Part shown: one piece after another, positions 38,906 through 40,410 of the stretch | Position numbering within the stretch: position 1 is the stretch's first letter | Layout: every line of letters begins with the position of its first letter | NCBI GenBank assembly: GCA_020832405.1 | Contig: JAFIET010000031.1 | Location: 1-40,410, forward strand | DNA from: Balneolales bacterium | GTDB lineage: Bacteria; Bacteroidota; Rhodothermia; Balneolales; Cyclonatronaceae | Direction: 5' to 3' | Length of the DNA stretch: 40,410 bases | The notes under the pieces: model-generated | What the model was told of the DNA's origin: nothing | The model's input: only the letters and a program-made list of their open reading frames with translations | The model's database searches: none | Position numbers and translations under genes: made by a program

Positions 38906-39850
38906 ATGATTACCCCGCTTCACCGAAACATTCTGGCACGCCATAAAAGCTCTCTGAACGGAGCCCTGCGGGTGCTGCCGTTTCGGTCGCGGGCGCTCGG
39001 GGTTTCGCGCAATGTGTTTGTTTACGAACCACCCAATATGCGCAACCTCTCCGATATGCATCTGCTATACCTGTTTCGCGGCCATGAGCGCGAATTTGTG
39101 TATATAGATGAAGACGACAGCCGCAGCACAACCACCATCGAAGACCTTGATGCACTCATAAGCTCCGGCCAAATCCCCCCGGTGATGGCGGTAATTCCGG
39201 GGCTCACCTCCATCGACGGCAAAAGGCACAGTATGGGTATCAACAGCCTGCTGCCGTCAGCCGATACCCGCGACGGTCTCGGCTCCGGACAGTTTTGGGA
39301 TTTCCTGACCCTCGATCTCATTCCTTATGTTGAGGCCCGGTATCAGAGTAAGCTGAGCGGCGGCTTCCGGCTTGCTGCTGGCTTCTCGCTCGGCGGCTAT
39401 ACCACCGCGCTTATTGCGACCGCCTTCCCCGGCTACCTCGATCATGCCGGGATTTACGACGGCCTGTTTATGTTCGATGCACAAACCGACATCCGCACCA
39501 ATGCGCCGGATGAAATCTGGCTGAAGTCAGCCGTACCCGATGCCGCCCTCGGCCCCGCCGAAACCCGCTCGCCCGAAGCCCTCGCTCCCTGGAACCCCGC
39601 CGAACTCGTACGCTACGCCGACCCCGTAACCATGGAAGAAATTCAGGAAACCATGTTCTGGATCCGCAGCGCCGCCGGCGACGGCCTTGAGGGCAACCAT
39701 GACCGCTGTAAATACTTCACCGCCCTGCTGCGCGAGCACGGCATCACCGCGGGCTTCAACCGCATCCCCCTGCACCCCGACGCCCGCCACACCTGGCACT
39801 GGAACGATCGCTTCATAAAGCTCTTCCTGCTGAACGTGTTTACGGGTTAA
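38906..39850 (+). CDS. Second alpha/beta hydrolase (esterase D-like)
   Basis: 314 aa putative esterase (esterase D/enterochelin esterase-like group). Motifs: nucleophile elbow AGFSLGGY (Ser161), an Asp in the strand after it, and the catalytic His in PDARHTWHW (about 298-301). The N-terminal 90 residues form a strand-rich half with a possible oxyanion loop LLYLFRGHERE. Cytoplasmic, no signal peptide. It resembles the first hydrolase of the cassette (237 aa) in fold only. ATG 38906 lies 18 nt after the amidotransferase stop. The stop at 39850 is directly next to the inverted-repeat element. Confidence 0.87.
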   Translation: MITPLHRNILARHKSSLNGALRVLPFRSRALGVSRNVFVYEPPNMRNLSDMHLLYLFRGHEREFVYIDEDDSRSTTTIEDLDALISSGQIPPVMAVIPGLTSIDGKRHSMGINSLLPSADTRDGLGSGQFWDFLTLDLIPYVEARYQSKLSGGFRLAAGFSLGGYTTALIATAFPGYLDHAGIYDGLFMFDAQTDIRTNAPDEIWLKSAVPDAALGPAETRSPEALAPWNPAELVRYADPVTMEEIQETMFWIRSAAGDGLEGNHDRCKYFTALLREHGITAGFNRIPLHPDARHTWHWNDRFIKLFLLNVFTG

Positions 39851-39876
39851 TGGCACGCGGATTTGGCACGCGGATT
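39851..39876 (+). repeat. 13 bp tandem duplication at the element edge
   Basis: TGGCACGCGGATT occurs twice in a row (39851-39863 and 39864-39876), directly after the hydrolase stop. The second copy is the outer end of the left inverted repeat. Confidence 0.85.
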
Positions 39877-39913
39877 TGGCGGATTTTCAAGCGCTGATAC
39901 ACGCGGATTTTTT
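39864..39913 (+). repeat. Left inverted repeat arm
   Basis: Begins TGGCACGCGGATTTGGCGG and ends in a T-rich GCGGATTTTTTT. Matches the right arm (40353-40402) in reverse complement with about five mismatches, three of them in the spacer before the last GCGGATTT unit. Confidence 0.85.
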
Positions 39914-40308
39914 TATGATTTGGTTTGCCGCTTGTTTTTGTTCATGAAAACTTTCCTTCTGAAATCAGGCCGTACACCAAAATTCAGCAGCAAACCAACT
40001 TCCATCCGAGTGCCTCTAAGATAATTTAACAGCTGAGCTTCATTTGCACTTACAATTGCTTCAGCAGCCTTAAGCTCAATAATTACAAGGTCATTAACAA
40101 TAAGGTCAGCGAAATATTCGCCGACCTCAATTTTTTTGTAATAAACGCTGATTTTCTTCTGTGCTTCAACCTCAAAGCCTCTGCTTTTCAATTCGCAGTA
40201 CATGGCGTTCTGGTAAACCTTTTCTATGAATCCAAAACCCAACTGATTATATACATCAAAAAAGGTTTTTAAGATTTTATCTGTGAGATCTTTGTGCAGC
40301 AGAGACAT
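39913..40308 (-). CDS. GxxExxY protein, PD-(D/E)XK nuclease-like
   Basis: 131 aa from ATG 40308. The family signature GFIEKVY (residues 26-32) is present, and a nuclease-like core follows: Asp68 in YFADLIV and Glu78-x-Lys80 in IIELKA, spaced as in PD-(D/E)XK enzymes. The QLLNYLRGTRMEVGLLLNFG end is typical of the family. The family is widespread in environmental bacteria and has no proven activity. Low-complexity Lys-rich tail. It is flanked by inverted repeats and its stop codon overlaps the left arm, an arrangement suggesting that gene and repeats move together. Confidence 0.93.
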   Translation of the reverse strand: MSLLHKDLTDKILKTFFDVYNQLGFGFIEKVYQNAMYCELKSRGFEVEAQKKISVYYKKIEVGEYFADLIVNDLVIIELKAAEAIVSANEAQLLNYLRGTRMEVGLLLNFGVRPDFRRKVFMNKNKRQTKS

Positions 40309-40352
40309 TTGCAGTTACGCATCATTTTACTGTTGTATGGGAGTACAAATAT

Positions 40353-40402
40353 AAAAAATCCGCGCAAATCAGCGTTTGAAAATCCGCCAGATCCGCGTGC
40401 CA
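40353..40402 (-). repeat. Right inverted repeat arm
   Basis: Plus strand reads AAAAAATCCGCGCAAATCAG... to ...ATCCGCGTGCCA. It is the reverse complement of the left arm with about five mismatches. It lies 45 nt before the GxxExxY start, so the promoter of that gene must lie in or next to it. Confidence 0.85.
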
Positions 40403-40410
40403 TCAAATGC

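Follow-up and report, generated by a model that had tools for sequence, protein, structure and literature searches.

In the REP/REPIN–RAYT system (REPtron), a single resident gene is bordered by inverted repeats, cognate copies of the repeat lie in intergenic DNA as singlets and as inverted doublets with a short loop, each gene has a separate repeat class, and the RAYT gene, unlike insertion sequences, is mostly inherited vertically (PMC3116915, PMC8266576). The GxxExxY genes analysed here resemble the REPtron in each of these respects, with doublets occurring mainly in Bacteroidia and mostly single arms in the genome from which our sequence comes. They differ in their enzyme, a predicted PD-(D/E)XK nuclease instead of a HuH Y1 transposase, in an arm consensus without the GTAG tetranucleotide, and in arms that are arrays of 40–50 bp with sub-units spaced approximately 9–10 bp apart, where the REPtron has one short palindrome. 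Without a HuH Y1 enzyme, the GxxExxY system lacks the defining feature of the REPtron family, though it appears to work alike.

MITEs mobilised by insertion sequences also have terminal inverted repeats and exist in gene-less and gene-bearing forms; GxxExxY units, however, have no DDE or HuH transposase and their gene-bearing form is not multicopy. The solo-Cas4, RecB and YqaJ nucleases share the predicted fold and the active-site motifs D, ExK and QxxxY, whereas GxxExxY proteins are just approximately 130 aa long. Solo-Cas4, too, is reported to be inherited vertically under purifying selection (PMC5704561), and no report of a solo-Cas4 with cognate inverted repeats was found in the literature searched. 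The TIGR04256/PF13366 family itself is described by motif only. The papers searched use GxxExxY as an annotation and leave it unexplained (PMC8934634, PMC12085832), and one of them reports such a call where a cas4 gene would stand (PMC8934634). We found no description of a GxxExxY–repeat pairing in the open-licence literature searched. These comparisons suggest an undescribed enzyme-plus-repeat system, working like REP/RAYT yet unrelated to it. The preliminary description of the locus had likened its logic to REP/RAYT, an apt comparison given the dispersed cognate repeats, the inverted doublets and the gene bordered by repeats.

The window locus and its predicted nuclease

The window is the whole stretch of DNA analysed (40 410 nucleotides). 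It is an entire contig, C117 of the genome referred to below as G000, and ends just beyond the right arm of the inverted repeat. The features at this end are as follows.

39848–39850, + strand: stop codon (TAA) that ends the putative esterase gene lying upstream (38906–39850, PF00756), with the repeat starting right behind it
39851–39863, + strand: 13-bp direct duplication of the left arm's outer end, TGGCACGCGGATT present twice
39864–39913, + strand: left arm, with inward-pointing CGCnGAT sub-units approximately 9–14 bp apart; one of approximately 50 genomic copies
39913–40308, − strand: GxxExxY/PDDEXK_3 gene, 131 aa, predicted Cas4/RecB/lambda-exonuclease-type PD-(D/E)XK nuclease
40353–40402, − strand: right arm, which repeats the left arm in inverted orientation and points inward
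40356–40410, no strand assigned: final 55 bp of the contig, matching one end of contig C34 exactly

The layout first read from the letters, imperfect inverted repeats (approximately 45 of 50 positions) around one gene whose stop codon lies at the inner edge of an arm, the whole placed directly after another gene's stop, was borne out. The 50-nt arms are 90% complementary across a gap of 439 nt, the GxxExxY stop touches the left arm, and this arm follows the esterase TAA with the 13-bp duplication between them. The pair has a flank-to-flank inverted score of 39 and none of 265 control ORFs reached 18, which places it beyond chance. Since the last 55 bp of the window are also the end of C34, the assembly breaks at the repeat, a typical place for this. 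C34 continues with a convergent gene, the C-terminus of whose protein is predicted to resemble a secretion/sorting domain, and this gene is the likely neighbour of the window's right end.

By its profile scores the window protein is a full member of both TIGR04256 (GxxExxY; 131.7 bits against a cut-off of 35, 1.5e-38) and PF13366 (PDDEXK_3; 136.3 bits against a cut-off of 22, 7.9e-40), above the curated cut-off in each case. The 131-aa protein carries the motifs G24xG26xxE29xxY32, D68, E78-x-K80 and Q92-xxx-Y96. D68, K80 and Q92 are invariant in an alignment of 59 sequences, with E78 and Y96 at least 90% conserved, so that the PD-(D/E)XK-like signature noted previously (Asp68, Glu78-x-Lys80) stands as given. 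Foldseek comparison of a structure model (mean pLDDT 91.7) yielded Cas4 SSO0001 (PDB 4ic1; E 1.4e-4, probability 1.00, TM approximately 0.55) as the top solved structure, with lambda exonuclease next and MGME1 as a weaker match. The model thus predicts a Cas4/lambda-exonuclease-like fold with an intact active site, combining the core fold and the motifs expected of the Cas4/RecB branch of the PD-(D/E)XK superfamily. A sequence-profile search of PDB chains gave zero matches at E ≤ 1, a PHROGs search likewise gave zero matches, and PADLOC returned weak Cas4 matches only (0.0026 and 0.012). Its identity to proteins from other phyla-level groups is 71%, as against 52.5% at most to the genes sampled from its own order, and the gene was therefore probably acquired by transfer.

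Inverted repeats in the window genome and at other GxxExxY genes

The preliminary description had proposed a genome search for the 50-bp arm, reasoning that arms found nowhere else would speak against a mobile unit. The search recovered the arm sequence at approximately 50 other sites in G000, each returned twice because the arms are mutual complements. Among 49 well-formed copies in the fetched stretches, 46 lie outside ORFs, and copies often begin a few bases past a gene stop, as the window's left arm does after the esterase. Their outer edge is sharp, with TRA outside and TGGCAC inside (T at −3 in 32/49, R at −2 in 42/49 and A at −1 in 47/49). The arm consensus is TRGnACRCnGATnACnCnGAT, and arms fall into 46-bp and 50-bp sub-classes, those of the window being of the 50-bp form. 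Allowing up to 3 mismatches, G000 contains a 41-bp core of the 46-bp form 35 times, and 59 relatives, of which five are congeneric, have no copy; the reversed-pattern control was zero everywhere. One close inward pair (C41:14231/14288) stands out among the mostly single copies of G000; in genome G005 the region syntenic with the C41 repeats is without them, the gap being occupied by other sequence. At one contig end (G000:C87:5898-6554) three arm copies with an exact 303-bp spacing mark a longer unit that was duplicated in tandem. On contigs C178, C45, C14, C7 and C113, GGAT-type repeats often abut CGCAAAG-type repeats or GACCGCA runs, which means that individual intergenic gaps hold stacks of several repeat families.

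GxxExxY/PDDEXK_3 genes are present in 61/98 genomes of the order and 155/247 Bacteroidia genomes, as well as in other phyla. Whether they are flanked by repeats more often than chance, a question raised at the outset, was examined in two sets using 200 bp per side and the best inverted local alignment. For 91 genes of the order, with 265 other ORFs from the same stretches as controls, 52/91 reached an inverted flank score of at least 16 compared to 1/265 controls and 4.8% of swapped flanks; approximately 40% of the genes have no clear inverted repeat at this score. The second set comprised the 79 nearest relatives of the window protein (from Bacteroidota, Ignavibacteria, Chloroflexi, Calditrichota and one gammaproteobacterium), of which 55/79 scored at least 16 (10/240 controls) and 47/79 at least 20 (2/240 controls). 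Both results lie far above controls. Swapped flanks matched in 30% of cases at score 16 in the window-type set because the arms have a common consensus. The arms mostly point inward and lie approximately 0–150 bp from the gene, and inward motifs were present on both sides as CRCnnAK doublets in 27/91 genes (0/265 controls) and as GAT triplets in 21/79 (0/240). Direct repeats were enriched too (44/91 versus 6/265 at score 16 in the order set), since many GxxExxY genes lie within arrays. An artefact of chance or composition in low-complexity intergenic DNA might be suspected, given short, periodic sub-units and the 30% of matches with swapped flanks; its probability is negligible, as it is refuted by the control ORFs (1/265 and 10/240) and by reversed patterns, which were found zero times in 98 order and 247 Bacteroidia genomes.

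In Bacteroidia the arms also form inward pairs with loops of 3–24 bp, giving dispersed gene-less units of 91–112 bp that are found together with gene-bearing units within three genomes (G128, G148 and G336). Identical units in G161, which sit at the ends of contigs and could represent one place, were excluded as evidence. Sub-unit spacing is close to one helical turn. Covariation across the hairpin is modest: two R columns alone covary clearly, and most of the conserved pairs fall on framework positions that do not vary. A pure RNA-hairpin reading was therefore set aside, a protein-binding array in duplex DNA being equally possible. The variable positions lack pairing. The gene-less units also bear on the idea that the arms serve the gene only locally, as its operator or transcription terminator, with dispersed copies as unrelated passive duplications. 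Arms within approximately 0–150 bp of the gene and copies that frequently adjoin gene 3′ ends fit this idea, yet many copies lie far from any GxxExxY gene, two-arm units without a gene occur in many genomes, and the sub-unit arrays differ from the terminator layout of a stem followed by a T-run. We regard it as very unlikely.

Correspondence between repeat and protein

The repeat pattern was found in 45/247 Bacteroidia genomes, and a PF13366 gene in 43 of these 45 compared to 112/202 pattern-negative genomes (p = 3e-8). In the order, 26/27 pattern-positive genomes have a GxxExxY gene (p = 5e-6); Y1 transposases, however, are likewise present in 26/27. Co-occurrence alone hence does not name the enzyme and was rejected as proof by itself, and tests of adjacency, paralogues and protein similarity were used.

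Arms differ in class between GxxExxY groups: CRCnnAG arms go with many GPGLLES-type proteins and CRCnGAT arms with window-type proteins, and there are also TGTGAT and ATCCTG types. TGTGAT sub-unit arms (L152, L169, L170, L172 and L174) accompany a GxxExxY group of mostly 127–137 aa. Within 28 genomes that have at least two GxxExxY genes, left and right arms of the same gene matched for 56% of genes (score at least 16), whereas the left arm of one gene matched the right arm of its paralogue in 2.3% of pairs. At loci without shared neighbours, arm similarity climbed with protein identity (Spearman 0.66), such that similar arms were found in 1% of locus pairs at 30–40% protein identity, 44% at 60–70% and 80% above 70%. 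In this last range the share of locus pairs with similar arms was 80% in the orientation consistent with inward-pointing arms and 52% in the opposite one. By these measures the repeat tracks the individual protein, beyond a mere shared genome.

This correspondence would be unexpected if a different enzyme (a RAYT/Y1 or insertion sequence transposase) spread the repeats and GxxExxY were cargo caught between two copies. The Y1 transposases in 26/27 repeat-positive genomes and a REPIN-like array layout (PMC3116915) speak for such spreading. Against it, each GxxExxY paralogue within a genome has arms of its own, arm similarity tracks protein similarity even at unrelated loci, and G000 has approximately 50 copies yet no match to Y1_Tnp (PF01797) across the genome, in a survey directed at Y1 transposases. 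RAYT was rejected as the agent in G000, and we consider spreading by another enzyme improbable overall.

Inheritance and a possible mechanism

In Flavobacterium, eleven genomes carry the unit between genes with BioF- and BioD-like products (intergenic distance 461–650 bp). Five genomes have a bioF–bioD gap of 31, 53, 67, 69 or 123 bp that lacks both the gene and the arms; three of these gaps hold other repeat-like sequence, and one further genome has a different ORF. Comparison of these sites indicates that arms and gene are gained or lost jointly. The preliminary description had held that the same gene at the same place without arms would count against a mobile unit; at bioF–bioD they are jointly present or absent. 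No target-site duplication was seen at the empty sites compared, which come from species whose divergence prevents the boundary from being placed exactly. At the window locus, the esterase gene of relatives is followed by neither the gene nor the arms, and its downstream neighbour differs in each, so that no clean empty site was obtained there. As minor observations, the unit-free sites L371, L372 and L373 contain short CGCAAAG/CACAAAG-type repeat pieces, and many species have the unit inside what is presumed to be a biotin operon (L345–L352 and L215), so that an effect on bioD expression is possible.

Among GxxExxY pairs of more than 80% identity, 65/75 occupy the same locus, and dN/dS is approximately 0.03–0.1. 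From these values the gene is mostly inherited in place, as is RAYT, under strong purifying selection. G000 has one intact GxxExxY copy and one unrelated truncated copy, in place of the near-identical multiple copies of an insertion sequence or MITE, and paralogues in other genomes are usually diverged, with the exception of one tandem pair. That pair (G040:C4, L049 740–1857) consists of adjacent genes with 99% identity and 187 bp of identical flank, a recent tandem duplication; the truncated gene of G000, at the end of C86 (L073 3862–4010), belongs to another subfamily. A hopping transposon was rejected as a reading, close homologues being mostly at a common locus. The preliminary description had suggested a minimal mobile or repeat-spreading unit: the dispersed cognate repeats (approximately 50 copies) favour the second half of this, while the 65/75 shared loci and the low dN/dS argue against a gene that hops. 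A resident gene that moves slowly and has dispersed repeats is the better description of the locus.

We think it probable that the system has two parts, a resident GxxExxY nuclease and its own inverted-repeat family, with the nuclease recognising, cutting and dispersing the units; that the enzyme binds and cuts the arms, and that cutting drives dispersal, is what we infer. The window would then hold the gene-bearing copy of this nuclease-plus-repeat system. In the cognate repeat, three or four CRCnGAT sub-units follow one another approximately 9–10 bp apart, and two such arrays facing inward make one unit, with either a short loop (the hairpin-capable, gene-less form of 91–112 bp) or the nuclease gene in the loop. 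The target of the nuclease would most likely be the arm pair, either in duplex form or folded up in single-stranded DNA while replication or repair is under way, with cutting at the base of the arms. To our knowledge PD-(D/E)XK nucleases do not carry out strand transfer. Dispersal would thus depend on the replication or repair machinery of the host, by which units might be excised or copied into other intergenic sites, often beside gene ends. The nuclease gene itself would mostly stay in place by inheritance, and single arms, as in G000, may be remnants or half-products.

The main rival is a host repair or maintenance nuclease that resolves or trims repeat structures, the repeats being functional sites (for example in operator function, replication or repair) that do not spread. 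Strong purifying selection and vertical inheritance are consistent with this, as are a predicted fold of the Cas4/MGME1/lambda-exonuclease type, typical of end-processing enzymes, and sub-units approximately one helical turn apart, like protein-binding arrays. It leaves unexplained why the repeat expanded specifically in the G000 lineage and why gene and arms are cleanly missing together from an orthologous site, and we judge it unlikely, if less so than the alternatives above.

Under the preferred reading of a nuclease that cuts and disperses its own repeat, the tie between gene and repeat supplies a concrete candidate substrate for the widespread GxxExxY family, making its function directly testable. 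It is quite conceivable, though we would stop short of calling it probable, that a widespread class of dispersed bacterial repeats has its dedicated enzymes in the GxxExxY proteins, each protein lineage recognising its own CRCnnAG, CRCnGAT, TGTGAT or ATCCTG array and spreading or maintaining it by hydrolytic cutting together with host replication or repair, independently of known transposases. If true, this would offer a candidate cause for many unexplained intergenic repeats in environmental bacteria, and, alongside REP/RAYT, another way, with different chemistry, for bacteria to carry dispersed repeats. Finally, at G013:C9, G016:C22, G025:C1 and G057:C17 the GxxExxY domain lies within open frames of 883–896 aa, a possible fusion conserved in one genus.
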